Position numbers and translations under genes: made by a program. This document shows, in pieces, positions 5,113-30,821 of a stretch of 64,000 bases of DNA. The notes below the pieces were generated by a model that searched no databases, was not told where the DNA came from, and was given only the letters and a program-made list of their open reading frames with translations. Source of the DNA: Edaphobacter paludis (GTDB lineage: Bacteria; Acidobacteriota; Terriglobia; Terriglobales; Acidobacteriaceae); NCBI RefSeq assembly GCF_039993895.1, contig NZ_CP121194.1:2232001-2296000 (forward strand), given 5' to 3'. Each line of letters begins with the position of its first letter. The first letter of the stretch is position 1.

Positions 5113-5152
5113 AGATGCTCCTAGGAACGTAGTTCGATTGCGGGACGGAAGG

Positions 5153-6073: not shown

Positions 6074-6100
6074 ATTTCCTCCTTCACATCTGCTTAGGCG

Positions 6101-6139: not shown

Positions 6140-6146
6140 TTGAGAC

Positions 6147-13469: not shown

Positions 13470-14450
13470 TTGACGAAGACGAAGCAGCAGAATGAGATTG
13501 CAGCACCAGCCTTATTACTCCAACACAATCCCTTCGTTTACGTGGTCGTGCTTCCTGGCAAGTGGCTTTTGACCCATACGACACCCTCATGGAGGCTTCA
13601 AGACCCTATTGCCGGATTCCAAAGGATCGTCAATGAGGCGCGATCCCGTGCCATCGCAAGAACAGTGCTGGACAACGAACGGACTTTCCCGAACGCAATC
13701 ACCCTTGCCTCAAATGTCAAGACCTTGAACTTCGATGGACGTAATCTCACTCTGCCAGATAAGACCAAGTTTCTCGTCGTTGATGGGCAGCATCGACTGT
13801 GGGCTCAGAATTTCTCGAACAAAGAGGCGAACTACGCCTGCATCGTCCATTTAGACAAGTCCGAGAAAGAGATGGCCGAACTTTTTCTAGAGATAAATGA
13901 CAATCAGAAAAGAGTTCCCTCGTCTTTGCGTTGGGATCTTGTCCGATTGGTTCAGCCGAACGGCGACGAATCAGCAATCATGGCTTCTGAGTTGGTCTTT
14001 GAACTGGTCGAAAGGAAAGACAGTCCCTTCTACTATGCTATCGACCTCACTGGCGAGCAGAAGGACGTCAGCATAAAGCAGGGGTCATTAGCGCCTGAGA
14101 TCAAGACGCTCATCACCAAGACGAAGAAAGCTCACTCTGATCTCGGTTTCGAAGCTTATGCTGGACTGCTGATTCGATTTTTTACGGCGGTGAAATCATT
14201 AGACACAAAGGGATGGGGAGACACAGACAGTACGTTCTACAAGGCACGGATTCTGCGAGCTCTACTGCGGGTTCTCACCGAGCTGATTCTAAAGAGTCCA
14301 GCGCCCGCGATGATATCGACGCCGGAATTTTTGGCTACGCTCAGGAAGATTGACCCCCTTACCCTCACGCCTGAAGTAGTGCGGGCAGCTCAAGGGACAG
14401 CCGGGGTCACCGATCTCTTTCAGGCCATGCTGAAGCAGGTTGTTGCCTAA
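13470..14450 (+). CDS. DGQHR-domain protein (ParB/DndB-like superfamily)
   Basis: 326 residues. The defining motif DGQHR is at 105-109 (FLVVDGQHRLWAQN), followed by the usual acidic and ND-rich segment (ELFLEINDNQKRVPSSLRWDL). DGQHR proteins include DndB of phosphorothioation systems and DpdB of 7-deazaguanine systems, where they regulate or assist DNA modification. The start codon at 13470 is a TTG; ATG is absent near the N-terminus, and AGGAG about 8 bases upstream supports it. It is coupled by a one-base overlap to the next gene. First gene on the left flank of the island; its partner on the right flank of the leftward operon (18479-19501) is a second, divergent DGQHR protein. Confidence 0.85.
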   Translation: MTKTKQQNEIAAPALLLQHNPFVYVVVLPGKWLLTHTTPSWRLQDPIAGFQRIVNEARSRAIARTVLDNERTFPNAITLASNVKTLNFDGRNLTLPDKTKFLVVDGQHRLWAQNFSNKEANYACIVHLDKSEKEMAELFLEINDNQKRVPSSLRWDLVRLVQPNGDESAIMASELVFELVERKDSPFYYAIDLTGEQKDVSIKQGSLAPEIKTLITKTKKAHSDLGFEAYAGLLIRFFTAVKSLDTKGWGDTDSTFYKARILRALLRVLTELILKSPAPAMISTPEFLATLRKIDPLTLTPEVVRAAQGTAGVTDLFQAMLKQVVA

Positions 14451-15280
14451 TGCGACTGTTCGATTACACTCAGGCTCAGCATTTTTGCGCACCACTACCT
14501 GCTTATCAGCAAGGCGTCGGGCAGTCACTTCCGACCCTTTACAGGGGCTCGGCTTCCAAGACTGTACGCGAAGGCTCGCAAAACTTTACTATCCATCGGA
14601 TCAGTCTACTCAACAATGTTGAGCGCGGAATCCTCTTCGGGGTGAGCCAATATCGGCGCGCTTTAGAGATGTTCACTCCAAGCAACGCTGCATGGTCGCA
14701 GGTATCTCTCTATTACGCATCGTTCTTTGCAGCGAATGCAATCCTTGGCATGTATGGAGTGTGGGTCGGACAAGGCTATTCAGCCGATGTGGAGTCAGGG
14801 ATACCGAATCATCAGGCGTTTCAGATTCATAAGAAAAATCTGAAAGGGCCGAGCGGCTATCGTGGAAGCCACGAAGTGTTCTGGGATCTCTATTACGAGG
14901 GATGCACGTCCTTTGCGCCATGGGTTCCGACTATCCTCACCGAGGCGATCGAGCCCGTGAACAATAACCGGACGTGGCAGATTACTTCGCGTAACGGTGT
15001 CAACTACGACATGGCACAAGCCTTTGACGCATCCGTTCTCTTGAAGTCAAATCCTCGCCCAAAAGACTTGAGTGAATACGGCGGGTCGCTTGGCCAACAG
15101 CGTGAGGTAACGGAGCATATTCTTAAACTCGCAGTTCACTTTGCTAAAGAGTTCAAGGTAAGCAGCTTTCCTTATGAGGGCCTTTTGGCCGGAGATCGGC
15201 CAAAGGTCATTCGCTCCCTCGTAACCGCGCCGCCGCCAAATCTTGTAACACAATCCATTTTGCAGCAATTGTTTGTGTAG
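14450..15280 (+). CDS. Hypothetical protein coupled to the DGQHR gene, HEPN-like motif
   Basis: 276 residues, start ATG overlapping the stop of the upstream gene (TAATG). The segment AAWSQVSLYYASFFAANAILGM (about 84-105) resembles the helical core of HEPN and MNT-partner proteins (YYAxFFAA), but the catalytic RxxxxH of HEPN ribonucleases is not evident, so the resemblance is weak. No membrane segment. The tight coupling means it probably works with the DGQHR protein. It ends 43 bp before the convergent ATPase gene. Family not recognised. Confidence 0.7.
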   Translation: MRLFDYTQAQHFCAPLPAYQQGVGQSLPTLYRGSASKTVREGSQNFTIHRISLLNNVERGILFGVSQYRRALEMFTPSNAAWSQVSLYYASFFAANAILGMYGVWVGQGYSADVESGIPNHQAFQIHKKNLKGPSGYRGSHEVFWDLYYEGCTSFAPWVPTILTEAIEPVNNNRTWQITSRNGVNYDMAQAFDASVLLKSNPRPKDLSEYGGSLGQQREVTEHILKLAVHFAKEFKVSSFPYEGLLAGDRPKVIRSLVTAPPPNLVTQSILQQLFV

Positions 15281-15322
15281 ACGTCGTACGTACATTCAGA
15301 AGAGAACGTCAATGCGGTCTTT

Positions 15323-16888
15323 TCACTTTTGCTTCCGTCGATGGCTGCGCAACTTGGAAAGAATCTTGCCGACCAGCCTATCTGCGACATCTGACTGGCC
15401 CTCCGCAAGATAGATAGTCTCAATAACGTCCTTGATTATGTGGCGTTGTGCGGGTGGAAAATCTTGCAATGCATCGGCAGTATCCGGGTCATCGGGAAGA
15501 GCCTTTAGTTTGCTCGTAATCTTTTTGATCCTTAGTTCGAACCGGTCCCCCTCAGAATCGCTAAATAGCCCACGTTGAGAGGTCTTTGCCAGCGTGGAAA
15601 GGCACGATTCAACTTCCTCTTTTAAAGAAGCTACAACGAAAGCTGGAGTCCGGGGCTTTGACGCAATGGCAATGCTTTCCTCGCATTTAGCGAGGTCAGC
15701 TTCGTGCTTCTGAAGCGCATTTCTGCTGATCGAGCTGACCCGGCAACGGTGTGCGATGTCCTTTGCAGTGGGAGTAAGACGGGTCAGCAAATCAGAGAAA
15801 TGGGCGCTGTGCTCATAGTTGTCTCTGCGCCCATTCGGAATAATCTTTTTGCTGAGGACGTGTGTTTCAGCGATCGTCCATCCATTAAAGCGGCTCTCCG
15901 GGAAGAGCTCTTCTAAAATGTCGTTTCCGCCAACCTGCACATCCCCAGACCGCAATCGCCAGCCATTTATCATTGTGCTTTTAGGCAAAGTACCTAGATA
16001 CTCGTGATGCAAAACCCAACTGACTGCGGAGCACTCCCCCTCTCTATCTAGGGTCGTGAACATTTCAGGAGCAAGCAGCTTGAGTCTCTTACCTCCCAGC
16101 GCAATCTCGTTGCGATGGGGTCTAAAAACGGGCCCCTCACCCTCGATCTCAACGGACAAAGGTGTGTAGCTTACACCGTTATCTTTGAGATAGTTGGTAA
16201 TCTCTTCTCCAAAGCTGAACTCCGGGTGAAACGCGACGGGTGCGACCTGCCCCAGGTATTGAGATACGTCGAGCGTATTTAATAGCCTGTCGTCTCGGTG
16301 GCGCACAACATTCCGCAGCTCTACTTCAAAAAAGTGGTCTGGATAGCCGCTAGCTGGAATTGTTCGGGATTCGATGCTCTCTGCAATGATCCCTGCGAGG
16401 TCGAGTTGGGTATCAGAAGAGCGCAAAAGCGTCCGAACTTTGCGAGAATCCCACCGCAGCTCATAGACAGAGTCTTTGCCCGCCGGGCGAGTGCGGAAGA
16501 TGAGTTCTTGGCAGTATGCTAATCCTGCCAATCGCCCTACACCTCGGAAGCCTCGCGCGTTTGTACCGCGCTTCGCACTTCCACCGATCGACGTCAGTCG
16601 CTTACGGAACTCGCGTTCGCTGAGGCCGAGGCCGTCGTCCGATATCAGGATGCTGCGTTCTTGCCGATTGATTTTTATACGAACGGAACCAGAACGATTT
16701 GTGTTGCGAGTAGTCGCGTCTGCATCATGCGCATCGGCTGCGTTTTGAATGTACTCTCGGTACATTGTAAGCGGATCGACGTACATAGAAGTGCTTAAGA
16801 GTTCAAGGATGTCTTTGCCAATGAATATCTGATCTGTTGGCTTGGACCATTGCGGTTGTTTCACTTGTAGGCTTACGAGTCCTGACAT
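15323..16888 (-). CDS. GHKL (HSP90/MORC-like) ATPase
   Basis: 521 residues. The N-terminal GHKL ATP-binding domain shows the N box (YREYIQNAADAHD, Asn49), the G1 motif (DDGLGLS, 84-90) and the glycine loop GFRGVGRLAG (113-122), as in HSP90, MutL and MORC. The middle is an HSP90-like or S5-like transducer, and the C-terminal third (about 395-521) is helical and charged, suitable for dimerisation. ATPases of this kind occur in several antiphage systems as ATP-gated clamps. The ATG overlaps the radical SAM stop by one base (TGATG), so it is translated with it. It is not a housekeeping HtpG: the length and C-terminus differ. Confidence 0.85.
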   Translation of the reverse strand: MSGLVSLQVKQPQWSKPTDQIFIGKDILELLSTSMYVDPLTMYREYIQNAADAHDADATTRNTNRSGSVRIKINRQERSILISDDGLGLSEREFRKRLTSIGGSAKRGTNARGFRGVGRLAGLAYCQELIFRTRPAGKDSVYELRWDSRKVRTLLRSSDTQLDLAGIIAESIESRTIPASGYPDHFFEVELRNVVRHRDDRLLNTLDVSQYLGQVAPVAFHPEFSFGEEITNYLKDNGVSYTPLSVEIEGEGPVFRPHRNEIALGGKRLKLLAPEMFTTLDREGECSAVSWVLHHEYLGTLPKSTMINGWRLRSGDVQVGGNDILEELFPESRFNGWTIAETHVLSKKIIPNGRRDNYEHSAHFSDLLTRLTPTAKDIAHRCRVSSISRNALQKHEADLAKCEESIAIASKPRTPAFVVASLKEEVESCLSTLAKTSQRGLFSDSEGDRFELRIKKITSKLKALPDDPDTADALQDFPPAQRHIIKDVIETIYLAEGQSDVADRLVGKILSKLRSHRRKQK

Positions 16889-18486
16889 CAGGCGGTGATC
16901 TCCACGTAATCAGAGGCTGCTAGTGTTGAAGCCCGGTCAGCATCATCGTTTAGCCCTGCATCTTCTACTCTCTCCTCGTCGGGGACGGCAGCAGCAGGCC
17001 TTGGAGCATTCCAGATCAAGGCTTCTTGCTCCTTGTCCATAGGAATATAGAACTGAAGAATCCTGCGGACGGCTGAACTCTCAGCAATCGTGGGCAACAG
17101 CTCAAAATTCCTCGCATCGGTTGACGAAACGAGGCCGAGCAGTTCGTCGCGATCACTATCAGCAAGGCGCGCAAAGTCCGATTGAAATTGATCCAATTCA
17201 GCCTTTCCCTCGCCTTTCTCAAACCATTGACGGTTGAAGATGAAGTGGTGTGGCATAAGAAGGATCTTCTCGAAGTCCTGATACGTGTCGCCGAAGGCAT
17301 GACGAAAGAAGTCGGGCGCACCACTGACAACGCCGTGTGTGGCTTGGAGGATCAGCTGCATGGAACGCAACTGATAGCGCGACCATTTAGCTCCAATGTG
17401 CGACCGGTTAGGCAGGTCCGTCGGTTGGAACCGCATAGGAAAGGACCAGATTCGTATTTTCAACTCTTCGTTAAGCGTCACATTCACGCGCATTCTTTCG
17501 AACAAATCGCGTGGTGAATCTTTGAAGTTGTACAGCATGTAATTAGAGAGTTCGGTCAATCCGAACTCTGTTGCATAGCGAACGGCTTGAGAATAGGGCT
17601 CTATAAGGCCCAGATGATCAAAGGCGATCCGGAGCGGTCTCAAACAGATCGTCGAAAGTTCCCGCAGGTACATCTTGTCCTTGCAGAGAATCCGCGCATC
17701 CACGCCCTGATTGAAATCCACTCGCCGTTGCACAGAGACACGCCCGCGCTTCAGCTTCGCGCCAGGAGTAAATCCAAGATCGCGGATCTCTGCGATAATC
17801 TCTCTAAATTTGCCTGATGCGACCACATTGTTGTCCATCAGGGTCAAGTCCTTCTTGGCTCCATAAAATTTTTCTACCCCGCGGACTATGGCCGAGATTG
17901 ATTCGGTATCTCTCTGATCTCCTTCGAGCTTTGGAACGCCACAGAAGCTGCATTTTCTGATGCAACCACGAGACCCGTATGTGAAATAGGCATCACTCAC
18001 GGGATACTTGTATTCGATCTGATCCAAGATGCTGTAGTCAGGAATGAGATCTTCAATGGGCGTGCCGCTGGTATCATCCGCGTAGAGCTCATCAGAGAAG
18101 TCATCGAGCTGCAATGACGTCGCTGGAGCGGTATTGAGTAGACCCTTTATAACTCGGATGCCCTGCCAGCGGCGTTCCTCCAGAAAGCGTTCGTGCATGA
18201 GCGATGCGGCAATACCGCCAACGAACACCTTGTCCCGACTACCTCCGGCAACTCTGAGGGCAAAGTCGATGGTCTCAGCTATTTTGGGGTACTCAAATGA
18301 AAAGAGGGTCGTCACATAAATCCGATCCCAAGCTTGCCCAAGGACAGATTTGTCTTCACCCTTGATAAACGTGACGTGATCGCGTTTACCTCGTGGGCCA
18401 TGGTACTGCGCGATCTTCATCAAGCCAAGTGGCGGATATTTGTTCTTGTATCCGGGCTCAATAAGCAGGATTCGATTGTTAGCCAC
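16888..18486 (-). CDS. Radical SAM enzyme with a B12-binding-like N-terminal region
   Basis: 532 residues. The cluster-binding motif is C175-IRK-C179-SF-C182 (GSRGCIRKCSFCG), the CX3CX2C of radical SAM enzymes. The N-terminus (RILLIEPGYKNKYPPLGLM, about 5-23) and the following Rossmann-like part resemble cobalamin-binding domains of methylthiotransferase-type enzymes, though no DxHxxG cobalamin histidine is visible, so B12 may not bind. An acidic tail follows residue 495. The reaction is unknown; radical methylation or thiolation of DNA or of a nucleotide is conceivable given the DGQHR and ParB-like neighbours. Its start overlaps the upstream gene by 8 bp and its stop the ATPase start by 1 bp. 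Confidence 0.88.
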   Translation of the reverse strand: MANNRILLIEPGYKNKYPPLGLMKIAQYHGPRGKRDHVTFIKGEDKSVLGQAWDRIYVTTLFSFEYPKIAETIDFALRVAGGSRDKVFVGGIAASLMHERFLEERRWQGIRVIKGLLNTAPATSLQLDDFSDELYADDTSGTPIEDLIPDYSILDQIEYKYPVSDAYFTYGSRGCIRKCSFCGVPKLEGDQRDTESISAIVRGVEKFYGAKKDLTLMDNNVVASGKFREIIAEIRDLGFTPGAKLKRGRVSVQRRVDFNQGVDARILCKDKMYLRELSTICLRPLRIAFDHLGLIEPYSQAVRYATEFGLTELSNYMLYNFKDSPRDLFERMRVNVTLNEELKIRIWSFPMRFQPTDLPNRSHIGAKWSRYQLRSMQLILQATHGVVSGAPDFFRHAFGDTYQDFEKILLMPHHFIFNRQWFEKGEGKAELDQFQSDFARLADSDRDELLGLVSSTDARNFELLPTIAESSAVRRILQFYIPMDKEQEALIWNAPRPAAAVPDEERVEDAGLNDDADRASTLAASDYVEITA

Positions 18487-19501
18487 GATTGACCATCCTT
18501 AAAGGGCTAACGCCTCTACTCTGTCGAATGCTTGCAACCACCTTACCCACGCCACCTTCTCCGCCAAAACCTTGGAAAGGCCCTTGCCTGCTCCAATCGA
18601 TATCGCCTAGGAACTCTGAAAGCTTCATAACGAAATACCTCTTGTCACAAATTTGCCCTTTCGCCTCCGTATAAAGATCGGCGGCGATGATCATCAGCGC
18701 ATAAACACCAACACCTTTGTTGATCAAGTACGCTCTTGGCGCATTCCACAAGTCTTGAAGGACGACAGATACGGCGGACCAAAACGCGATCACGATCTCA
18801 GCAGCTGCTTCCGCCGATTCGGACTTTATAATTTGCGTTTGGCTTAGGAACTTTTTGACTGCTTTCTGCATCGTTCGTAGAGACGCTCGACGCATCATGC
18901 CAGACGTAGCTACGCCACCCAAATCTAGCTGTTTGCTCCAAGGGGAATCTGGATGAATGTTGAGCTGCAATGCGATATAAAGCTCTGGTTTTTCGCGGGC
19001 TAGATCCCCAGCAAGCGATGCCTCATGGAAGTCCAGCAGGCTGTTGCTTAGTCCTCTCGCTTTGCTATTGATCACGCTGAAGATTTCCATCTCTTCGGCC
19101 TGATCAAGGCCGATGAAAGTCATAAATGGGAGGGTGACGTCGACATCGCTCAGGTACCCAAGTCGGTGCTGACAGTCAACTTGGACCATGACCTTCTCCG
19201 CGCCTTCGCGAACTTCGAGCACGGAGAGACCGCTCACGGCTTCCGTAAGGCGCCACGCCTCTGTTCCACTCGGGCGAAGATTGAACGTTAGCGGAATGGT
19301 CGAGCTTTGCGCGCCTTGAATGTAGCGGCGAAAATCCAAGCTGTGTTTCGCGTTGAAGCGGCGCTGGTATCCGCGTCCCGTCTCCTCGACGAGAACATCA
19401 GCAAAGCTCAACGCTGCCAATAGGCGAGCAGGAGCGAAGCCCATTGCGACTTTACGCCCTGCAGAAAAGCCGATCTGGCATGGAATTTTGTGGATAGACA
19501 C
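18479..19501 (-). CDS. Divergent DGQHR-family protein with DCQHR motif
   Basis: 340 residues. The motif reads D109-C-Q-H-R113 (MVQVDCQHRLGYL), with cysteine in place of the usual glycine, followed by the family-typical FSVINSKARGLSNSLLDFHE. The N-terminus (FAPARLLAALSFADVLVEETGRGYQR) fits the ParB-like fold of DndB relatives. In the ParB/sulfiredoxin superfamily a cysteine at the active loop can be catalytic, so this change may be functional. It heads the three-gene leftward operon with the radical SAM and ATPase genes and is divergent from the ParB-like gene at 19694. Confidence 0.8.
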   Translation of the reverse strand: MSIHKIPCQIGFSAGRKVAMGFAPARLLAALSFADVLVEETGRGYQRRFNAKHSLDFRRYIQGAQSSTIPLTFNLRPSGTEAWRLTEAVSGLSVLEVREGAEKVMVQVDCQHRLGYLSDVDVTLPFMTFIGLDQAEEMEIFSVINSKARGLSNSLLDFHEASLAGDLAREKPELYIALQLNIHPDSPWSKQLDLGGVATSGMMRRASLRTMQKAVKKFLSQTQIIKSESAEAAAEIVIAFWSAVSVVLQDLWNAPRAYLINKGVGVYALMIIAADLYTEAKGQICDKRYFVMKLSEFLGDIDWSRQGPFQGFGGEGGVGKVVASIRQSRGVSPLRMVNRG

Positions 19502-19693
19502 GATCGCTCCTTGCAGCGTTCTACTGCAATTGTGCCACAGTTCAAGTGCACAATGGGGGTCTGATCACTGCAATGAGAGTTGTGCGAACATTTTGCTAAG
19601 TCCTACACTCTGAGCGGTTTGTAGTCAAGGCAGGCCTAAAACAGAGGGAAGGATTACCGAAGGGTCTAATTCGTTGATTCTAAAGGAAATGCC
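19502..19693. promoter_or_regulatory. Divergent control region of the island with an inverted repeat
   Basis: A 192 bp gap between the outward-reading halves of the island. It holds ATTGTGC (19529-19535) and GCACAAT (19548-19554), a perfect 7 bp inverted repeat with a 12 bp spacer, and a third related half-site TTGTGC about 30 bp further on. This is the likely operator for both operons; no regulator gene is recognisable within the island itself. Confidence 0.5.
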
Positions 19694-20710
19694 ATGAACG
19701 TTTCGCCTCCCGGCGTCGGCAAGCTCCAGCTCGTACCGATCAATGAGATCGCGTTGGACCGTGACAACCCGCGTATCCGCAAATTTCTTGAGATGTACGG
19801 AGAGAATCCGACTGCCGAGCAGTTTTACTTGGCACTGGGAGCCGCTGGGGATGATGAAGGTGATCACAGCGCGACTTTCGAGAAGCTCAAAAACTCAATC
19901 CAGACAAACCAAGGAATTATTCAACCTGTCATCCTTACTAGGCGGGCCGGCCAATTCGTTTGCATCGAAGGAAACACCCGCGTTGCACTGTATAAGAAAT
20001 TCCTCGCCGAAAAGATACCCGGCCCATGGACGGAGATCATGGGGATGGTGTACGAGGAGATGGGCGACCTCCAGGTTGATTCCATACGCCTTCAGGTTCA
20101 TCTCGTCGGAACTAGGCCGTGGGACCCTTACTCGAAAGCAAAATATCTGCATCATCTTCGCAATGAGAAGAACATGCCGTTAGCCCTTCTTGTCGAGTTC
20201 TGCGGCGGGAAAGAGAAAGAGGTCGTCGAGGCAATCAACGCCTTTGCCGACATGGAGAGCTACTACCGTCCTATCGTTCAGGAAGGTAGTTTTGATACGA
20301 GCCGCTTTAGCGGCTTTGTAGAGTTGCAGAAGTCGAACATAAAGCAAGCGATAGCAGAAGCCGGATTCCAGTTGAGCGACTTCGCAGCTTGGGTGCGCGA
20401 CGAAAAGATATACCCGTTGAACACCGTTCGGCTATTACCGAGGATTTTGAAGCACAAGAAAGCAAAGGAAGAGTTCATAAAGCATGATGCTCGACGGGCC
20501 GCTGAATTTCTAGAACAACCTACCGTGACAAAGGCACTAGAAGACGCCAGCCTCGCTCAGCTTGCACATGCGCTCACTCAAAAAATCTACAACGTCTCTT
20601 GGCACGAAAAGGACAAGCTCTGCAAAGACCCTAACGGCGAGACGATGCAGGTCTTGAACGAAGCGGCGGACGCGCTGGAGCAAATGCTCGGTACCGAAGG
20701 CGCAAGCTGA
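19694..20710 (+). CDS. ParB-like domain protein, first in the rightward operon
   Basis: 338 residues. The N-terminus follows the ParB nuclease-domain pattern: LVPINEIALDRDNPRIR (about 13-29), SIQTNQGIIQPVIL, and FVCIEGNTRVALYKKF, the GxTRxxA-type substitute of the GERR motif. No helix-turn-helix of the partition type is evident; the C-terminal half is helical. Such stand-alone ParB-like proteins are found with DNA-modification systems. AAAGGA lies about 6 bases before the ATG. It is followed one base later by the nuclease gene. Confidence 0.8.
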   Translation: MNVSPPGVGKLQLVPINEIALDRDNPRIRKFLEMYGENPTAEQFYLALGAAGDDEGDHSATFEKLKNSIQTNQGIIQPVILTRRAGQFVCIEGNTRVALYKKFLAEKIPGPWTEIMGMVYEEMGDLQVDSIRLQVHLVGTRPWDPYSKAKYLHHLRNEKNMPLALLVEFCGGKEKEVVEAINAFADMESYYRPIVQEGSFDTSRFSGFVELQKSNIKQAIAEAGFQLSDFAAWVRDEKIYPLNTVRLLPRILKHKKAKEEFIKHDARRAAEFLEQPTVTKALEDASLAQLAHALTQKIYNVSWHEKDKLCKDPNGETMQVLNEAADALEQMLGTEGAS

Positions 20711-20711
20711 G

Positions 20712-21128
20712 GTGGGTGAGTCAGCTAAGCACATTGCGCTTCTAACAAAGTTGCTCCAATACGTCCGGGGTTCAATGGAGGACAGCCAGCACCTCTCCGT
20801 TTTGCACGATCTGCCCGGTCTAATTGGCTGCGACAAACCCCCAAGGCTCGGCGCCTTCCGGCCTGATTTATATGCTGCTAACGCGCCGACAACGGCGGTC
20901 ATCGTTGGGGAGGCAAAAACAGCTGCGGATTTAGAGACCAGCCATTCAAGGCAGCAGCTATTGGCCTTTCTCAAACATTTGGCTCTCTACCCAGGATCAA
21001 CACTTGTCTTAGCAGTTCCGTGGTCCTCAAGGGTTCGAGCAAAGCAGATGCTAATCAACCTCAGCAAAGAGAGCGGTTCCACGCAGACCTACCTTATCGT
21101 GATTGACGACGTTCAGGAGATTTCGTGA
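20712..21128 (+). CDS. Small PD-(D/E)XK nuclease
   Basis: A 138-residue single-domain protein with a complete nuclease core: Asp52 in FRPDLYA, E67-A-K69 in VIVGEAKTAADLET, and the following Gln-rich helix SRQQLLAFLKHL (about 79-90), as in Holliday-junction resolvase and VRR-like nucleases. The start is GTG at 20712; AAGG lies 11 bases upstream. Its stop overlaps the helicase GTG start by 4 bp (GTGA). It presumably supplies the cleavage activity of the SNF2 helicase, as in type I-like restriction assemblies, but carried on a separate chain. Confidence 0.75.
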   Translation: MGESAKHIALLTKLLQYVRGSMEDSQHLSVLHDLPGLIGCDKPPRLGAFRPDLYAANAPTTAVIVGEAKTAADLETSHSRQQLLAFLKHLALYPGSTLVLAVPWSSRVRAKQMLINLSKESGSTQTYLIVIDDVQEIS

Positions 21129-22618
21129 CGATCAGGGCACCGAGAGAACCAGACCTGTCAGCGAAGCACCAGGGTTTTCCCTATCAAGCTCAAGCCTTGG
21201 CCGCGACCAAAGATCTTCCATATGCAGCCATTTTCCATGAGCAAGGACTTGGAAAGACCAAGATAGGGATAGATCTAGCGCTTTACTGGATCTCTACTGG
21301 GGTGATCGACTCCGTCCTCATTGTTACAAAACGCGGGCTCATTCAGAATTGGATCGAGGAGCTGAGGTCACATACTTATGTGGAGCCGCGCGTCATCTCG
21401 CAGGACCGACGTGCCAACTTCCTTGCCTTCAATAGCCCTGCCCGCATCTACTTGGCCCATTATGAGGTAATGAAATCCGAACAGGCCCGATTGGACCTGT
21501 TTCTAAAGACCCGCAAGGTAGCGATTGTCTTGGATGAAGCTCACAAGATCAAAAACCCCGAATCAACAATCGCACAGGCCTTATTCAAGCTTTCTCTCGG
21601 CTTCGCACGTCGAGTTATTATGACCGGAACGCCGGTCGCAAATAGACCATATGACCTCTGGGCTCAAATCTTCTTTCTCGACCAGGGAGCCGCTTTGGGC
21701 ACCGATTTCGACGAGTTCCGGAAGACTCTCGACCTTACCAACGACATGTACGACGACTCAATCAAAACAGACCTTTTTGAAGGGGCATTAACCAGTGTCT
21801 TTGAGAAGATACGACCCTTCTCCATACGTGAAACAAAGCAAGGCGCAGATATTCAGCTGCCGCAAAAGCACATTTCCATTGTTAAAGTCGGGCTGGAGAG
21901 CCGACAGGAAGACCTGTACGACCGCTACAAGAAGGAGTTTGCTTCGATACTCGTCAAGTTGGGACAGCCGGTACTTGACGAGGCAGAGGATACTCTAAAG
22001 CGATTGCTCAGGCTTATTCAAGTCGCGTCTAATCCACGCTTGATCGATGATTCGTACCATGGGGTTCCAGGTAAGTTTCCCGTCCTGAGTGATCTCGTAA
22101 GCGATATTGTCTCTCGCGATGAAAAAGTCATCATCTGGACTACATTCACCCAGAATGTTGATTGGTTAGCTAAGGAATTTAAGAGCTACAACGCCGTTCG
22201 CATCCACGGGAGGCTGGCCCATGAGCAACGTGAGCGCTCTGTACGCCTATTCAAAACAGATCCAGATTGCAAGGTTTTAGTAGCCACTCCTTCTTCTGCA
22301 AAAGAAGGTTTGACGCTGACATCAGCTAATAACGCCATCTTCTACGATCGCTCTTTTAGCTTGGACGATTATCTTCAGGCGCAGGACCGCATTCACCGGA
22401 TCTCCCAGAAAAAAGACTGTTCTGTCATTAATTTAATAGCCGAATCGACTATCGATGAATGGGTCGAAAAGCTTTTGTCCGCAAAGCATCTAGCAGCACA
22501 GCTTGCGCAAGGTGATATCAACCGAGCCCACTATCACAAGAGCGCAGACTACTCCTTTGGAGACATGATCAAAGACATATTAGGTATCCGGAGGGACGAA
22601 CATGAAGCAAAAGGCTGA
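21125..22618 (+). CDS. SNF2-family DNA helicase/translocase
   Basis: 497 residues, close to a minimal SNF2 core. Motif I is EQGLGKTK (39-46), motif II DEAHKIKN (137-144), motif III MTGTPVANRP, and motif VI QAQDRIHRISQ near residue 430; the order and the QxxxRxxRxxQ ending are diagnostic of SNF2. Such enzymes translocate on double-stranded DNA without strand separation and appear in DISARM, Dpd and related systems. Start GTG at 21125. Gene overlaps: 4 bp with the nuclease upstream and 17 bp with the ParB-like gene downstream, showing one operon. Confidence 0.92.
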   Translation: MTIRAPREPDLSAKHQGFPYQAQALAATKDLPYAAIFHEQGLGKTKIGIDLALYWISTGVIDSVLIVTKRGLIQNWIEELRSHTYVEPRVISQDRRANFLAFNSPARIYLAHYEVMKSEQARLDLFLKTRKVAIVLDEAHKIKNPESTIAQALFKLSLGFARRVIMTGTPVANRPYDLWAQIFFLDQGAALGTDFDEFRKTLDLTNDMYDDSIKTDLFEGALTSVFEKIRPFSIRETKQGADIQLPQKHISIVKVGLESRQEDLYDRYKKEFASILVKLGQPVLDEAEDTLKRLLRLIQVASNPRLIDDSYHGVPGKFPVLSDLVSDIVSRDEKVIIWTTFTQNVDWLAKEFKSYNAVRIHGRLAHEQRERSVRLFKTDPDCKVLVATPSSAKEGLTLTSANNAIFYDRSFSLDDYLQAQDRIHRISQKKDCSVINLIAESTIDEWVEKLLSAKHLAAQLAQGDINRAHYHKSADYSFGDMIKDILGIRRDEHEAKG

Positions 22619-23600
22619 GTCAGAGACGACAGGTTCGCTGCGCATTAGCGGGAAAGATGTCCCAGTCACAACGAGGCTGCTGGAGCAATCTAAACTCCTC
22701 TTTTTCGCGGAGAACCCTCGCGTTTACTCCGTCCTCCATGGAGCCGGGAAGGCACCTGCCCAGGAAGATATACAGGCGCGCCTGCAAGACATGGAGCACG
22801 TTCGCACCCTAATAGTGGAGATTCGTCAGAACGATGGCCTCCTTGAACCTCTGATCGTGAAGGACAAGACGTTTGAGGTCTTAGAGGGCAACAGCAGGCT
22901 TGCTGCCTATCGTTTTCTGGCGAAGAATGCACCTGTCAAGTGGGGGATGGTGAAGTGCACGATTCTCCCAGCCGACATCGATGAATCTCTTGTGTTTGCT
23001 CTTCTCGGTATGTTTCACATTAAGGGCAAGAAGGATTGGGCACCATACGAGCAAGCTGGTTTTCTATCGAGACGGTATAACAAGCACAACCAAGATCTCA
23101 AGAAGCTTGCGACCGAGATCGGCATTAGCTCACAAAAAGTCAAACATTTAATCGACGTGTACGACTTCATGGTTAAGTACGACGAAGGCGTAAACCGTTG
23201 GAGCTACTTCGACGAGTATCTGAAGTCCACAAAAATAGGCAAAGCGCGTGAGAAGTACCCGCAGATGGACGATCTTGTGGTCGAGAAGATCCGATCTAAG
23301 GAGATTAAGAAGGCTATGGATTTGAGGGCTTATCTCCCTGTGATTGCAACTACGCCGCGAGCGTTGACCAAGTTCGTTTCGAAAGCACAAACTTTCGAGA
23401 AGGCATACGAATCTGCGGTTACTCAGGGCGGCGATAACGCTCACCTCAACACCACGAAGCGTTTCCGGCAGTTTGTTATTCGAAAAGAAGTCGAGGAAAG
23501 CCTTCTAGAAATGGAAGGAAGCGCTAGATCAACAGTGATTGACGAGCTTAAAAAGATTGAGCTCAAGATTCATCACCTTCTTAAAAAGTTGCAGTCCTGA
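22602..23600 (+). CDS. Second ParB-like protein, last in the rightward operon
   Basis: 332 residues. ParB-domain landmarks: NPRVYSVL (about 39-46), IRQNDGLLEPLIVKDKTF, and VLEGNSRLAAYRFL (GNSRL in the GERR position), followed by a probable KorB-like HTH (LKKLATEIGISSQKVKHLID). It differs from the first ParB-like protein of the operon in having this HTH, so it may provide sequence-specific binding. It starts 17 bp inside the helicase gene. The C-terminus is a Lys-rich helix. The island ends here. Confidence 0.8.
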   Translation: MKQKAESETTGSLRISGKDVPVTTRLLEQSKLLFFAENPRVYSVLHGAGKAPAQEDIQARLQDMEHVRTLIVEIRQNDGLLEPLIVKDKTFEVLEGNSRLAAYRFLAKNAPVKWGMVKCTILPADIDESLVFALLGMFHIKGKKDWAPYEQAGFLSRRYNKHNQDLKKLATEIGISSQKVKHLIDVYDFMVKYDEGVNRWSYFDEYLKSTKIGKAREKYPQMDDLVVEKIRSKEIKKAMDLRAYLPVIATTPRALTKFVSKAQTFEKAYESAVTQGGDNAHLNTTKRFRQFVIRKEVEESLLEMEGSARSTVIDELKKIELKIHHLLKKLQS

Positions 23601-24010: not shown

Positions 24011-26782
24011 TTACAGTCCAAGTCCAAAATCATGAGATCGCGAAACATCTGACGAGCGGTCCGTACGATCACGTTGCGGGGTGATCCGCTGTAAGTCCTC
24101 GCGGTCGATGGCACTCGTTTTTATGCTATCGAGATCCAACCTGTGCCCAAGGGAGTGAGCGTCGTTGGTGTAGATACGAGCGTCTTCAGATGCTCGCGAA
24201 ACGGATACGTACGCGAGTCGATTGTTGATAAGCCCGGGTGATAAATTGGTGTCGATTTGTACGAGCACGCGGCCCGCTGTGAGTCCCTGCGAACTGTGTG
24301 AGGTTAGCGCGTAACCATGATCAAACTGACGAAAAACCGCCGTGTTGAAGGTCACGTTCCGATTGAACTTTCCGTCTAGCCGCACTGTCATGCTGCCGTC
24401 TTCGATGCCCACGACCGTTCCGAGATCACGATTTGCGACGCCCAGGTCCTTGTTCGGGACAGTGAATTGAAGTCGGTCTCCTGTGGCGAATTCACGTTCG
24501 GCTTCGCGGAAAACATTGACTCCCCTCAAGCGTCGAGGGTCATACGTCACGGTCGAACCATCGTTAACTTCGACCGTCAGCAGATTAGCCTGCGGGTCAA
24601 CCTTGCGGACAGTCGCGAAACTGCCTCGCTCAATGCCTTCCGCTTTGCTGCCGGTGACGTATTGGAGAACGTCGTCCTTACTGTATCGAGCCGCCCAGGA
24701 GCGATCCGCTCCTGTCATGTCCGAGCGGTGAGTCAGCGTTCGGAATATCTGGCCGTCGTCCGCAATTAGGCCCGCTTTCCTCAGTTCGACTCTAACGGCG
24801 TCATTGATCTGCTGACGACTGCGATTATCCGGCGACACAATGATCGTGTTTTCCCGTTGTGCGGCATAATCCTGAGCGATGGCGGTGATACGATCACGTC
24901 CGTTCTGGATCTCGGTAATGCGTCCCTGTTCCGCCAGCATGGCGATACCCTGCACAGTCTCGTTCTTTGCAAGATGCCCAACTGCCTTGAGCAATTCCGG
25001 GTCCTTCTGGCGCATGATCCTGTCGAGCTGCGATGTCTGCATTCCGGCCTCCTGCATCTGCTGAAAGGGTCGGCCTGCATCGACCCCCTGATGTTGCCGA
25101 GTGTCCCCGATGACGAGCACACGGTCATTCGGTGTAAGTCTGCTGAGAAAGGACCGCATCTGATTTGTGCTGGCGAGGCTAGACTCGTCCAGCATGTAGA
25201 GATGACGAGCACTAGGCTCCGCACCCAAGAAATTTCGACCTCGTGCGAGAAAACTTTGAAGTGTGGTGGCGTCAATTCCAGACTCACGGAGCTGACCTGC
25301 CGCCTTGGAAGTGGGAGCGAACCCTTCGACCACGTAGCCGCTTGCCTCGGCACCTTCGCGAATCGTCTGAAGGGTCGTGGTTTTCCCCGTTCCCGCAAGT
25401 CCTTGAAGACCATGAACCCGGTCCGACGAATTTAAGACCTGCTCGATCACTCCACGCTGAGAGTCGTTCAAGAGGGATCGCGTATTCGCTTGTTCCCGCG
25501 CGTTTGCGGCGGTCATAATCGGCTCGATAGTGTTCCGCCCCTCCAGAACAAATCGGACATTGGCACGTTCGGCGGCAATAGTTTCAGGAGTTGTGAAGCT
25601 GCGACCGGAGTCGTGTTTCATTCCTTGGACAGAGCGAAACTGTCCCGCTCCGCGCCGTTCGTCGAACTCAGCTCGGATGTCGCGGTATGAGGTCTCGCCC
25701 ATGCCGCGCCTGAGCGCGTCTCGGAGGATGGCGCGCTCGTCTGCCACAGCCTCCCTCTCAAAGATGCTGTCGCGGGCGAAGGTGACCGCCTCTTTGGCGC
25801 GACTGATCTGTTGAGGCTCTCGTTCCTGTTGCTGAGCCCGGGCTCGGGCGGTAGCGACAACCTGCTGAGCCTGATTCCCAAAGCTGGCCGCCATCTCTTT
25901 ATGGGCGCTGAGGACTTCTTCGGCCGTGAACGGCTGCTTCCTGTCTCGGGTTGAGTGCGCTGCGATCTGGGCTGCCTCTGGCCCGCTGTATCCAAGTTTT
26001 TCAAGCTGTTCTCTGATCTGGCGTGAGCGCGGACTGGAGGCATCGAGATAGTCCTGCGTGTATCCTTTGATCTCAGGAGCTCCGCTTCTCCCAGGCTCGA
26101 TTTCGTATCCAAGCTGCGACAGCCGGAGAGTCAGCTCAGACTGATAAACGGCTGTCGCAAAGTTTTGGCTGTCGAACAATCCCTGCGGCTGGATGGCGCG
26201 CGTGCTGCCGTCCGCGCGTTCGGTGACGTTGAAGATCACAGCATGAGTGTGGAGCTGCGGTGCGGCATATCCGTCTACCGGACGCGCGGTGTCGTGCTCA
26301 AACTTTGCCGAGATGAACTTACCTGTAGCCTCCGCCGGATTATTGCCGCCGATCCGGGCTTGGGTATAACGCTCCAACTCCTCCAAAGCAGTCGTGACAG
26401 CCGCGCGGTGCGCCTCCCGCACACGGTCGTCGCCGCCCACAAGGGCGGTAAGAGAAACGGACTTGGGAGCCGAAAAAGTGGCATCCCATCCGGCACGATG
26501 CTCGACTGAGTTGGTGGTGCCGCCGTCGGCGTTCTTGTATTTCATCGCTGTTCGGTGCCTCACCAGCTGCTCGTCGGTAGAGGGGTTCTTGCCGTCCGCG
26601 AGCCGCGAGAATTCTAATGGCGATACCTCCCCGGATAAGCCAAGGCGAGCGGCGAGCTGGCCTTGCCATTCGCCTCGGACAGCATCGCCCTGCTTGTAGT
26701 AGTTCTGCGTCGCCGAGGTGAATTCCAGCTTGTGATAACTCTGCGCCTGGCGGGAACTGAGGGGTTTGGATATGGTTAGCAT
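24011..26782 (-). CDS. MobF-family conjugative relaxase-helicase, element 1
   Basis: 923 residues, TrwC/TraI-like. The N-terminal relaxase domain has the tyrosines Y28/Y29 (TQNYYKQG), the GWDATFSAPKSVS block (98-110) and the metal-binding His triad H163, H178, H180 (KFEHDT...LHTHAVIFN). The C-terminal RecD-like helicase has Walker A GLAGTGKT (461-468) and downstream SF1 motifs (FAPTSKAAGQL; MLDESS; GYALTSHSSQG; AYVSVSRA). It nicks oriT, stays on the 5' end and unwinds the strand to be exported. Last of three mobility genes after the accessory gene and coupling protein, 3 bp from the latter. The element 2 homologue starts at 61083. Confidence 0.93.
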   Translation of the reverse strand: MLTISKPLSSRQAQSYHKLEFTSATQNYYKQGDAVRGEWQGQLAARLGLSGEVSPLEFSRLADGKNPSTDEQLVRHRTAMKYKNADGGTTNSVEHRAGWDATFSAPKSVSLTALVGGDDRVREAHRAAVTTALEELERYTQARIGGNNPAEATGKFISAKFEHDTARPVDGYAAPQLHTHAVIFNVTERADGSTRAIQPQGLFDSQNFATAVYQSELTLRLSQLGYEIEPGRSGAPEIKGYTQDYLDASSPRSRQIREQLEKLGYSGPEAAQIAAHSTRDRKQPFTAEEVLSAHKEMAASFGNQAQQVVATARARAQQQEREPQQISRAKEAVTFARDSIFEREAVADERAILRDALRRGMGETSYRDIRAEFDERRGAGQFRSVQGMKHDSGRSFTTPETIAAERANVRFVLEGRNTIEPIMTAANAREQANTRSLLNDSQRGVIEQVLNSSDRVHGLQGLAGTGKTTTLQTIREGAEASGYVVEGFAPTSKAAGQLRESGIDATTLQSFLARGRNFLGAEPSARHLYMLDESSLASTNQMRSFLSRLTPNDRVLVIGDTRQHQGVDAGRPFQQMQEAGMQTSQLDRIMRQKDPELLKAVGHLAKNETVQGIAMLAEQGRITEIQNGRDRITAIAQDYAAQRENTIIVSPDNRSRQQINDAVRVELRKAGLIADDGQIFRTLTHRSDMTGADRSWAARYSKDDVLQYVTGSKAEGIERGSFATVRKVDPQANLLTVEVNDGSTVTYDPRRLRGVNVFREAEREFATGDRLQFTVPNKDLGVANRDLGTVVGIEDGSMTVRLDGKFNRNVTFNTAVFRQFDHGYALTSHSSQGLTAGRVLVQIDTNLSPGLINNRLAYVSVSRASEDARIYTNDAHSLGHRLDLDSIKTSAIDREDLQRITPQRDRTDRSSDVSRSHDFGLGL

Positions 26783-26785
26783 GGT

Positions 26786-28879
26786 TTAGAAGATCCCCGG
26801 ATGAACCCCGTGCTCAAGCTCATCCAGCGGCGTTTCTAAAGCGTGATGATGTGGACCATGAGGCAGCCTGACAATCTCGGGGCCGTCGGGGGCGAGCGTC
26901 ACTTCCGAAGCGACGCCAGCGGCTTGTTCGATCTGCGATCCAGACGCTGTTTGTTTTTCGATTTTGTGGGCCAGCGGAGCGCCGTCACCCGACGCCACTT
27001 CCGACTGTGCTGGAGGTCGAGCTATCTCAGTTCTACGCGGTTTCAAAGTGTCAGGGTCGAAGCTCATCTCGCCGTCCGCAGAACGCCTCTGTAAAAAGCC
27101 AGGTGTCGGAGTGGGCAAGTCCAGATAATCGAAGTCAAACCGGGCCACATCGTTTCCGAGCTTGAGGTAGGCATGCCGGTCGTCCAGCCCGCCGATCTCT
27201 GAACCCATTACCAGAGGCTCAATCTGCCGGTCAACGGTAAAGTTTTTGCCAGAACGTGAGCCGTCAAATTTGGTTTCCTTCAGCCTCTCAATCTCGACTT
27301 TACCGATAGCTTCGGAGATCCATTCCGCCGCCTTGGGCTCGGCTGTTTTCATGAAGATTTTGGTAGCGGGCTGGGACAACATGACCTCCGCTAGATGTCC
27401 GTATGTCACTTCAAGCTGGGACTTCCCCTGGAAGCCGAGCACGATCGGATTTTTGCTTTTTCGGTTTTCGGTTATGGCGGTGTGGAGCTGCGGGAGCTTC
27501 TGCAAACTAGCCAACTCGTCAATCACAAACCACACCGGCTTTTGTCCGGGCTGCGGGGCAGTGAGCAGACGCATGACGAGCAAATCGATCCACAGTGAAT
27601 GGAGAGGACGGAGCGTTTCGCGCTCTGGCGGACGTGAAGTAATGAAGATCCAACCTTTCCTCTCCCTGGCCCATGTCCGGGCGTTCCACGTCTGATCGGT
27701 CTGGGTTTTGTCGGGCAGGAGACGAAAGCATTTCGCGACTAAACCAAGCGACGCGAGTACGCCGGCACGCTGCGGACCGGCCTTACGGTCGATGTAAAAG
27801 GACATTTCCGTGCCGGCGACCAACTGCTCCAACGTTTCGCTGTTTGCCATCCACTCTGCGAGTTGATGCGGCGTGGGTCCCTTCCTTAATAGGTGGGCGA
27901 AGATCTGTGCCGGGGTCTGGTGAAAGAACTCGTCCTTGGCATCGGTGGCGGGTTGATAGAGAGATGCGGCGATAGCATCCGCCTCGGCGTTAGAGGCCAT
28001 CTCCTGCGCCGGGCCCCAGTACGGGCATCGTTCGTCCAATGGGTTTAGAACGATGTCGCCGCGATCCTTGTCGAAGAATCGCTGGATGTATTCGCAGGCC
28101 GGATCGTAGACGATGGCGGAGTCGCCGCGCTCGCGAATCTGGCGCAGGATTTGCATGATGAGTTGGGTTTTCCCGACCCCGGTGTCGCCCATGATCTGGA
28201 AGTGCTGGGCTTCCTTCCGAGCTGGTATTCGCATCATCTTGCCCAACTCAGTCGTCTTGAAACCGATTCCGTCACCCTTCTGCTGCCGGTTGAACTCCTG
28301 CGGCGAAAGGAGCTGAGGGCCGCGCAGAATGCGTCCATACTTCATTTGCTTGAAGCGGCGGATATCATACGGAACGGCGAGCGAGAGCATCAGAGCGAGG
28401 CAAAGCCCACCCTCGATGAAGCTGACGACGAAGAGCTCGAAGACGCCTTTGTCTTCGTAAACCGTGAGGCGGAGCCAACGGTTCAGCGAGAGGTCCGCGA
28501 ACTTCTGTTCCGGTCCGCGATAGAACGAGCGATATCCCTGCGCGACCGCCAGGTCCGAGAGCGCGGCGGAGACGATCTTCCCTCCTGGAAGAATGGTCTG
28601 CCCTTCGACGAAATCGACTGGAAAGGCAAGGCGCGGCTTTGCCTGGCCGCCTCCGAGATACAGAAGCCGATAGGATTCGTGAGCTTTGAAAGTGCTGCCT
28701 ACGCCAGAGCGGATGTACTCGGCGATGTAGCTCTTCTGGAGCGGCTCCAGTGAAAAGGCGAGCCTCTGCCAGACAAAAACGCAGGTGAAGAGGATTGCAG
28801 TTGCAATAGCCGTATAGCTCAGGATCGGCACATGCGGAGGCCAGATGATTGTTTCTTTTCGTCCCCATTGGGTGCCCAT
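26786..28879 (-). CDS. virD4: Type IV coupling protein (VirD4/TraG-like), element 1
   Basis: 697 residues. Two N-terminal membrane helices (about 17-39 and 148-170) anchor the hexamer; Walker A is GDTGVGKT (231-238) and the Walker B is in VWFVIDELASLQ (near 450). It links the relaxosome at oriT to the secretion channel and pumps DNA. The His-rich C-terminal tail (LPHGPHHHALE) is probably a substrate-recognition region. The element 2 protein (58999-61074) is closely similar over its whole length, including ENRKSKNP and SQPATKIF. It starts 2 bp after the accessory gene. Confidence 0.93.
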   Translation of the reverse strand: MGTQWGRKETIIWPPHVPILSYTAIATAILFTCVFVWQRLAFSLEPLQKSYIAEYIRSGVGSTFKAHESYRLLYLGGGQAKPRLAFPVDFVEGQTILPGGKIVSAALSDLAVAQGYRSFYRGPEQKFADLSLNRWLRLTVYEDKGVFELFVVSFIEGGLCLALMLSLAVPYDIRRFKQMKYGRILRGPQLLSPQEFNRQQKGDGIGFKTTELGKMMRIPARKEAQHFQIMGDTGVGKTQLIMQILRQIRERGDSAIVYDPACEYIQRFFDKDRGDIVLNPLDERCPYWGPAQEMASNAEADAIAASLYQPATDAKDEFFHQTPAQIFAHLLRKGPTPHQLAEWMANSETLEQLVAGTEMSFYIDRKAGPQRAGVLASLGLVAKCFRLLPDKTQTDQTWNARTWARERKGWIFITSRPPERETLRPLHSLWIDLLVMRLLTAPQPGQKPVWFVIDELASLQKLPQLHTAITENRKSKNPIVLGFQGKSQLEVTYGHLAEVMLSQPATKIFMKTAEPKAAEWISEAIGKVEIERLKETKFDGSRSGKNFTVDRQIEPLVMGSEIGGLDDRHAYLKLGNDVARFDFDYLDLPTPTPGFLQRRSADGEMSFDPDTLKPRRTEIARPPAQSEVASGDGAPLAHKIEKQTASGSQIEQAAGVASEVTLAPDGPEIVRLPHGPHHHALETPLDELEHGVHPGIF

Positions 28880-28881
28880 GA

Positions 28882-29259
28882 TTAGAACTCCTTCGATGAA
28901 GCGGTGGTGTACTGCTGCTGAATTTCTTGGGCGACCTTGCGCTTGTCGGAACGCACGGTCGCGCTGATACGCATGAAGTCCTCGGGCGTGACCACTTGGC
29001 CCATCGCCAGAGGCTTCAAGAGGTTGAGCAGGATCATCCGCGTGGCGATGAGTTCGGTGAACATCGGGTCATCTGCGCGGCGGGCTTCCCGCAAGAGAGC
29101 TTCCCGAGCCCATTCGCGAACCTTCATTCCATCCTTTGCAGCGGCTCGTGAGAGGACTGTCAGTTCACTTCTTGTAAAGCGGGTAGCGAAGCTTTCGCTT
29201 CGGGAGTCACGTCCGTTTCGGGAGGCGATCGTGGTCGGATCATCAGGAGTCAACTTCAT
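28882..29259 (-). CDS. Relaxosome accessory protein (MobC/TrwA-type), element 1
   Basis: 125 residues from ATG 29259, chosen for AGGTGA five bases upstream and because the element 2 homologue is also exactly 125 residues. It is a small DNA-binding protein with an N-terminal ribbon-helix-helix-like segment (SFATRFTRSELTVLSRAAAKDGMKVREWAREALL) and a helical C-terminus. Proteins at this place next to oriT bind DNA beside the nick site and recruit the relaxase. It lies between oriT (29379-29430) and the coupling protein. An alternative start at 29382 would place the large inverted repeat inside the gene. Confidence 0.8.
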   Translation of the reverse strand: MKLTPDDPTTIASRNGRDSRSESFATRFTRSELTVLSRAAAKDGMKVREWAREALLREARRADDPMFTELIATRMILLNLLKPLAMGQVVTPEDFMRISATVRSDKRKVAQEIQQQYTTASSKEF

Positions 29260-29280
29260 GGAATTCACCTGTGAAGAGTG

Positions 29281-29317
29281 GGTTCCAGATGCAACCGGCA
29301 TGGTTGCATCTGGAACC
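29281..29317. repeat. Perfect 16 bp inverted repeat beside oriT of element 1
   Basis: Arms GGTTCCAGATGCAACC (29281-29296) and GGTTGCATCTGGAACC (29302-29317) are exact reverse complements with a 5 bp loop (GGCAT). It lies 22 bp upstream of the accessory gene and 62 bp from the putative nick region. Likely an accessory-protein binding site or autoregulatory operator; element 2 has a different, smaller repeat in the same place (58509-58536). Confidence 0.75.
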
Positions 29318-29378
29318 GGGGCCCTCATTAAGTTGTTCTTGCTCAGCATGTTCCCCGTTGGAACCATTTCGCTGCTTT

Positions 29379-29430
29379 GCACGACCCTCGAAGGGGTGGA
29401 GTGTCAACATTCTTCCGGTGCGCAGCACCG
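29379..29430 (-). other. oriT: Putative origin of transfer (oriT), element 1
   Basis: About 52 bp nearly identical to 58461-58512 of element 2, in the same orientation relative to the mobility genes, and noncoding in both. It contains the 6 bp stem CGGTGC-GCA-GCACCG (29416-29430) followed, on the minus strand, by TTGACACTCCACCCC and a conserved GAGGGTCGTGC. A hairpin next to a conserved single-strand stretch is the layout of a MobF nick site. The exact nick base cannot be told from sequence. Confidence 0.7.
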
Positions 29431-29461
29431 CAGTGCCTTTGCCCCGGAATGAAATGGAGGA

Positions 29462-30752: not shown

Positions 30753-30776
30753 TGCGGGTATCTCACAGAGTTTGGA

Positions 30777-30796
30777 AGCCCGGCATTTACCGGGCT
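30777..30796 (-). terminator. Hairpin downstream of ssb, element 1
   Basis: AGCCCGG-CATTTA-CCGGGCT, a 7 bp stem, 25 bp after the ssb stop. A homologous hairpin with a partly changed stem follows ssb in element 2 (57011-57035). Because the primase is transcribed beyond it, it may attenuate or protect the message and not end it completely. Confidence 0.55.
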
Positions 30797-30821
30797 CCCG
30801 AGTTGATGGAAGGAAAGCGGC

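Follow-up and report, generated by a model that had tools for sequence, protein, structure and literature searches.

A radical SAM and GHKL ATPase gene core with exchangeable modules on a conjugative element of Edaphobacter paludis and in other bacteria

Introduction

What do nine closely packed genes of the acidobacterium Edaphobacter paludis encode, and do they belong to one system? The genes (g1 to g9) occupy positions 13470 to 23600 of a 64,000-nucleotide stretch of contig NZ_CP121194.1 (hereafter the window), and a first-pass annotation, made by eye, had taken them for an undescribed DNA-modification or defense island. We find that the island is built from a conserved core, comprising a radical S-adenosylmethionine (SAM) enzyme (g4), a GHKL ATPase (g3), and a DGQHR-family protein (g5), together with plug-in modules, of which the window has two, B and E. 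On balance we lean toward regarding the island as one immune-type (conflict) system of mobile elements, in which a stable core is combined with exchangeable effector modules. The genes, the residues of their families, their linkage, the exchange of modules, and their scattered distribution are direct observations; we infer a defense function, DNA as the substrate, and a division of labor among the parts.

Results

The core and its distribution

A search with the g4 protein, in which up to 8000 candidates were scored, returned at least 7999 matches. Genome contigs encode relatives at 155 places; the 80 best were taken as loci, a sample in which close relatives are over-represented. These loci, many of them from metagenome-assembled genomes, span eight named bacterial phyla (Pseudomonadota, 53; Acidobacteriota, 15; Verrucomicrobiota and Chloroflexota, 3 each; Gemmatimonadota, 2; Binatota, Nitrospirota, and Latescibacterota, 1 each; 1 unplaced). 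A GHKL gene lies downstream of the radical SAM gene in 79 of the 80; the exception (L058) sits on a contig that breaks off within the radical SAM gene. Whether all nine genes recur together, a question posed by the first-pass annotation, thus has a divided answer: genes of the island do recur as a unit across phyla, and therefore by more than chance, but the full set of nine was present in only one of the loci scanned (L010), and we reject the idea that the nine are equal members of one set. Distribution is scattered, the E. paludis genome being the sole carrier among 297 in a survey of its own phylum, and 2 of 279 genomes carrying the core in the order to which one Rhizobium carrier belongs, itself one of the 2.

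The Pfam matches of g4 to the radical SAM and B12-binding families are both weak and under the cut-offs (radical SAM score 18.2 versus a cut-off of 29.5), and neither g4 nor g7 has a PADLOC match at E <= 0.1. The three cysteines of the CxxxCxxC cluster motif (C175, C179, and C182) are present in 40 of 40 aligned sequences, with no other invariant cysteine, and the weak B12-binding match suggests an N-terminal Rossmann-like region. By sequence, the best relatives of solved structure are RimO/MiaB-type enzymes, matched weakly over about 50-75 residues. Methylthiotransferases need a second cluster, and g4 is unlikely to be one because only three of its cysteines are invariant. Any two of the loci compared share at least 51% identity in the radical SAM protein (five divergent or truncated ones excluded). 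The first-pass annotation had allowed that the radical SAM gene might be a metabolic stray; we reject this, as its partner genes are fixed, both in the 79 loci with GHKL and in their co-occurrence on plasmids (below).

The other two core proteins also keep their family residues. In g3, the ATP-site residues E45, N49, D52, D84, G86, G113, G116, and G118 are conserved in the window and the best 45 of 93 relatives, and solved structures give a weak match to Hsp90-type chaperones; a comparison of the g3 profile with that of a further family, x2, carries no information, the x2 profile having absorbed g3 rows. The motif of g5, DCQHR, is found in 44 of the 45 sequences scoring >400 bits. Searches of solved structures with g5, g7, and g9 as single sequences and with g2 as a profile gave no usable match.

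Plug-in modules

Five modules flank the core among the loci, and four of the five contain a nuclease-type domain. Module B, consisting of ParB, restriction endonuclease, SNF2, and ParB genes (g6 to g9 in the window), occurs in 40 of the 80 loci, 38 of which have the nuclease, the SNF2 protein, and at least two ParBs; module C, a PIN_8 protein with a second GHKL protein, in 24; module D, a fusion protein of about 770 residues (x3) with a restriction-nuclease-like start, a DGQHR middle, and a HEPN_Swt1 end, in 16; module E, a DGQHR and a HEPN protein (g1 and g2 in the window), in 4; and module F, a GHKL protein with a partner of 267-340 residues, in some cases with a HerA-like ATPase, in 9 as counted by the partner. 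Elsewhere the place of B and E is taken by the PIN and second GHKL pair, the nuclease-DGQHR-HEPN fusion, or the HerA-like module. All 55 fully flanked loci (those extending for 7.5 kb or more to each side) have at least one module, 51 of 55 if F is excluded, F having been defined only after inspection of the loci without B to E; B is the commonest, in 30 of the 55. Seven loci have no module, and the flanks of all seven are too short for the fully flanked class.

On one plasmid record (L005, Roseomonas mucosa p2-AD3) the core and the PIN module gene are some 90 kb apart, so that modules either can work at a distance or were separated from the core. A module C query found nothing in the 279 genomes, a result that carries no weight.

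Nuclease-type residues are conserved in modules B, C, and D. In module B, g7 matches no Pfam family, and its P51-D52 and E67-A-K69 are at least 90% conserved over 46 sequences (the window and the best 45 of 48 relatives), as is the whole PD...GEAK...Q pattern on which the by-eye PD-(D/E)XK call had rested; these residues point to a PD-(D/E)XK active site. The EGNTR motif of g6 is conserved in the window and the best 45 of 61 relatives, and g9 is a paralog of g6 (hhalign probability 100) with a conserved EGNSR motif. The x3 start has D109 and E122-C-K/R, read by eye, and its HEPN_Swt1 end, under the Pfam cut-off, has R736-x4-H741. The DGQHR part of x3 is related to g1 (hhalign probability 98.6); homology between the HEPN end of x3 and g2 was not found by hhalign. 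For g2, with no Pfam match and a single weak PADLOC match (DrmC, E 0.014), a structure model predicts a HEPN fold, in agreement with the HEPN-like call of the first-pass annotation. The HEPN catalytic motif is RX4-6H; g2 has instead the invariant motif given in Table 1, with tyrosine (Y186) replacing histidine.

These nuclease types bear on two other readings of the island. One is a sensor-effector abortive system, in which the radical SAM and GHKL proteins sense infection, GHKL changing conformation as a switch, and the nucleases of the modules bring about cell death or arrest, with no marking of DNA: the PIN and HEPN RNase-type domains of modules C and D and the predicted HEPN fold of E would suit suicide effectors, and the modules are exchangeable, but the conserved radical SAM chemistry (three invariant cysteines, at least 51% identity between the loci compared) is left without a role, and we consider this reading rather unlikely. 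The other is an RNA-directed system, in which a tRNA or another RNA is the substrate of the radical SAM enzyme and HEPN and PIN nucleases cut RNA that lacks the modification; the RNase folds of modules C, D, and E fit it, as does the weak resemblance of g4 to RimO/MiaB, whereas the commonest module is a dsDNA-type set (SNF2, PD-(D/E)XK, ParB) and the three invariant cysteines speak against methylthiotransferase chemistry. We regard it as quite improbable.

Linkage seen from other genes

To avoid the bias of a sample anchored on the radical SAM gene, 72,556 plasmid records were searched with other genes of the island. The g4 query itself matches 16 records. In 12 the match has 60-80% identity and covers 80% or more of g4, and in the other 4 it is partial; the 12 core records include three duplicate-like pairs (strain AB2/73, N. 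aromaticivorans, and NZP2077). The g5 query matches exactly the same 12, and g3 the 12 plus one fragment. The queries with the two ParB-like proteins (ParBa, g6; ParBb, g9) and with SNF2 (E <= 1e-60) find the same 7 records, all within the 12 (hypergeometric estimate for 7 of 7, about 4e-28, uncorrected for near-duplicate records); in a Bradyrhizobium record, ParBa and ParBb have their best matches (25 and 29% identity) at one and the same place, with others elsewhere in the record. Among 35 records matched by x3, 5 reach at least 80% coverage, and all 5 are within the 12. PIN matches 18 records including all 12 core records and is not specific, since coverage is at least 80% in 6 of the 12 and 34-37% in the other 6, like that in one record that lacks the core. 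Of 20 carrier genomes, the 9 with linked module B have ParBa, and in the other 11 it was not found anywhere. A ParB relative in one genome (G026, locus L140) was considered as a module B lacking radical SAM and rejected: there is no g7 match, and the nearby SNF2 match reaches only 10.9 bits.

Among viral contigs, the SNF2 query finds 8 close loci (47-59% identity), after which identity drops to 29%; 6 of these contigs were hits of the radical SAM scan as well, and the 6 contigs found by ParBa are all among the 8. All 8 loci have the complete ParB-REase-SNF2-ParB set, and 7 have an orthologous, core-type radical SAM gene and a GHKL gene. In the eighth (L146) the gene overlapping ParBa by 4 bases encodes a very different radical SAM protein of 452 residues, which scores 35 bits against the core profile; in this case, therefore, module B stays tied to radical SAM chemistry even though the enzyme has been replaced. 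A relative of the L146 enzyme, in L206, is without module B. Upstream of the variant gene, L146:4770-6341 encodes a 523-residue protein that looks reverse transcriptase-like by eye and has no Pfam match.

The ParB-like, nuclease, and SNF2 genes thus act like a single unit, as the first-pass annotation had supposed, the ParB-like and SNF2 queries matching the same plasmid records and the full set being present in the viral loci. The alternative it offered, that two unrelated systems merely share a promoter region, might draw on the 40 of 80 loci which have the core without module B; but in the sets anchored on other genes every complete module B seen is accompanied by a radical SAM gene, in all 7 plasmid records and all 8 close viral loci (the different one included), and we judge this most improbable.

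Core versus module evolution

A quickly built tree with 91 radical SAM proteins (branch support by the SH-like approximate likelihood ratio test only; five rows excluded as divergent or truncated) requires at least 20 changes for module B, 15 for C, 13 for D, 4 for E, and 6 for F, and 6 for g5, counts for which rows without a module were left out and no shuffled-label control was made. Distances in GHKL and g5 correlate with those in radical SAM at 0.87 and 0.71, compared with 0.37 for ParBa, 0.35 for SNF2, 0.43 for ParBb, 0.59 for g7, and 0.32 for PIN, where the ParBa and ParBb distances may mix the two paralogs and the Mantel test leaves shared ancestry in all the correlations. The core genes co-diverge more tightly than the module B genes. 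The nearest relative of the window core, in a Granulicella (L007), illustrates the exchange: the radical SAM proteins on the tree are 91% identical and the core 72% identical in DNA, yet module F there replaces B and E.

The window and its mobile context

All nine open reading frames lie where the first-pass annotation placed them (Table 1), in three operons, g1-g2, g5-g4-g3, and g6-g7-g8-g9. Its description of tight operons with 1-17 bp overlaps and a divergent control region is borne out, with overlaps of 1 base (g1/g2), 1 (g3/g4), 8 (g4/g5), 4 (g7/g8), and 17 (g8/g9); g6 and g7 do not overlap and are one base apart. Its gene classes were likewise upheld by Pfam, PADLOC, and NCBIfam scans, that of g7 by conserved residues and that of g2 by the predicted fold.

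A conjugative element carries the island, which is flanked by an ArdC anti-restriction gene on one side and by a TrwC relaxase and a coupling protein on the other, and beyond the relaxase lie a tyrosine recombinase, type IV secretion genes, and an AbiE pair. The two sets of conjugation genes in the window may represent two tandem elements, or one with a duplicated transfer region. Further off, a group of three genes looks like arsenic resistance from its Pfam families, and these genes would correspond to arsC, ACR3, and arsM.

Such surroundings would also suit an addiction or exclusion device, serving maintenance of or competition between conjugative elements rather than antiviral immunity. 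The window copy lies between ArdC and the relaxase and beside conjugation genes; the related element L007, which lies near an ArdC gene (there in pieces), has the same core; and 7 of the 12 core plasmid records are typed conjugative. Against this, the core is also found on contigs of up to several megabases in many phyla, and restriction-type systems can serve both purposes; we think this reading very unlikely.

Table 1. Features of the window (strand in the third column)
Feature	Position	Strand	Assignment
g1	13470-14450	+	Module E; DGQHR protein (DndB/ParB superfamily); motif DGQHR; Pfam DndB E 2.9e-10; TIGR03187 E 2.9e-31
g2	14450-15280	+	Module E; HEPN fold predicted by structure model, probable RNase; invariant R181-N-x-x-N-Y186
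g3	15323-16888	-	Core; GHKL ATPase; HATPase_c_3 E 4.3e-13
g4	16888-18486	-	Core; radical SAM enzyme; one CxxxCxxC motif; weak RimO/MiaB/B12-radical SAM matches
g5	18479-19501	-	Core; DGQHR family, motif DCQHR; TIGR03187 E 1.5e-35
Divergent control region, core operon versus module B	19502-19693		192 bases; read directly from the sequence
g6	19694-20710	+	Module B; ParB-like protein a (ParBa); motif EGNTR; ParB_N E 0.0067, under cut-off
g7	20712-21128	+	Module B; small putative PD-(D/E)XK nuclease; P51-D52, G66-E67-A68-K69, Q82
g8	21125-22618	+	Module B; SNF2 helicase/translocase; SNF2-rel_dom E 1.4e-27 plus Helicase_C
g9	22602-23600	+	Module B; ParB-like protein b (ParBb); motif EGNSR; TIGR00180 (parB_part, NCBIfam) E 3.4e-4, under cut-off
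Two conjugation gene sets	24011-40533 and 48645-61074		Opposite orientation; two VirB4-type ATPases, two VirB11-type ATPases, two TrwB-type coupling proteins
Tyrosine recombinase	42663-43997		Between the two conjugation sets
AbiEi/AbiEii pair	44638-46112		Type IV toxin-antitoxin pair, near the recombinase
Three-gene group	4624-7678		Low-molecular-weight phosphatase, SBF-family transporter, class I methyltransferase (Pfam)

Comparison with known systems

The core has no equivalog-level match in PADLOC or NCBIfam, and searches of the openly licensed PMC literature turned up no account of it. The opinion of the first-pass annotation that this is none of the known systems holds against the Dnd, Dpd, DISARM, and BREX profiles, and likewise for Zorya, in that the defining genes of each are missing among the nine proteins. 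Specifically, i) Dpd is similar in joining DGQHR/DpdB-like proteins (DpdB is described as a ParB-like ATPase in PMC12839542) and an SNF2 helicase (DpdE) in one defense-type cluster, but the DpdB equivalog scores are 40.9 and 56.1 bits versus a cut-off of 300, the enzyme core of the island is radical SAM and GHKL, and DpdA has no match at E <= 0.1 in PADLOC (for g8, among the 25 of 28 matches listed) or NCBIfam; ii) Dnd/Ssp is similar in its DndB-superfamily proteins and in a modification core with varied nucleases, PMC10853773 naming HEPN and PIN among those of Dnd neighborhoods, but DndA, C, D, E, F, G, and H have no match at E <= 0.1 in PADLOC or NCBIfam; iii) DISARM shares a DrmD-like SNF2-family helicase, but the DrmD equivalogs score 66 and 41 bits versus cut-offs of 950 and 610, and DrmA, DrmB, and the methyltransferase have no match, the weak g2 match to DrmC apart; iv) Zorya type I has a ZorD-related SNF2 helicase and a separate PD-(D/E)XK protein, but the ZorD equivalog scores 71 bits versus a cut-off of 1500, and ZorA, ZorB, and ZorC have no PADLOC match; and v) PglZ and BrxC of BREX have no PADLOC match, g8 matching the BREX helicase BrxHI weakly, as other SNF2 proteins do. 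The plan of the island resembles known systems (Dnd and Dpd); its enzyme core differs.

Phage relatives of g4

Phages encode short (about 300 residues), stand-alone radical SAM relatives of g4, found on 27 viral contigs (L102 to L128; also L098:5974-6891). An alignment of 7 shares with g4 the invariant RGCxxxC, CxxC-V, DNN, and VDF/V-F-G-D motifs and R and D positions; unlike g4, these proteins are short and, in the 25 of the 27 contigs in which the profile detects them, have no GHKL (g3), DGQHR, ParB, PD-(D/E)XK, or PIN profile match within flanks of up to 5 kb. An SNF2-profile helicase is present in 6 of the 25. In a sample of 66 of 200 neighboring open reading frames, helicases are the commonest named families (4 members each), and methyltransferase (DNA methyltransferases) and PAPS-reductase families have 2 or 3 members each. 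The short phage enzymes are possible counter-defense proteins.

Discussion

How might such a system of core and modules work? We suppose that the core marks a nucleic acid, most probably the DNA of the host itself, or recognizes a mark of this kind; that the GHKL ATPase would serve as an ATP-driven clamp or switch; and that the core DGQHR protein may bind DNA or regulate, as proposed for DndB/DpdB. Module B would be a DNA-restricting arm, in which the SNF2 translocase surveys DNA together with the two ParB-like proteins and g7, the small putative PD-(D/E)XK protein, cuts DNA without the mark or with the wrong mark, and module E could be a second, backup arm, probably RNA-cutting. DNA is favored as the target because of the SNF2/PD-(D/E)XK/ParB module, the DndB-type proteins, and, weakly, the short phage relatives of g4.

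Several observations weigh against this picture of one DNA-directed immune system with a stable core. The sequence itself gives no sign that the substrate of the radical SAM enzyme is DNA; PIN and HEPN are RNase folds and would also fit an RNA target or an abortive model; g5 is present in 39 of the 80 loci, about half only; x3 of module D has a distance correlation of 0.80 and tracks the core closely, so not every module is loosely coupled, and the possible mixing of ParB paralogs clouds the values for module B; a GHKL gene was looked for in L146 and not found, despite module B and a radical SAM gene; and a PADLOC scan of neighboring genes gave 51 families for 105 open reading frames (of 204 candidates) versus 28 for 87 in a control which itself held CRISPR and AbiE genes.

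A bolder form of the favored reading is that the radical SAM and GHKL proteins write a new self mark on a DNA base or sugar, that the interchangeable modules, at least five, police unmarked DNA, and that phages use their short radical SAM enzymes to write the same mark and so evade; we offer this tentatively, as a possibility with the odds against it. If true, this would add a new chemical class to modification-based immunity.

The core is widespread, in eight named phyla, yet none of the PADLOC and NCBIfam models that our searches reached describes it. The island predicts either a new modified nucleoside or new sensor chemistry, and it clearly exemplifies an enzyme core that stays fixed while nuclease modules are plugged into it.

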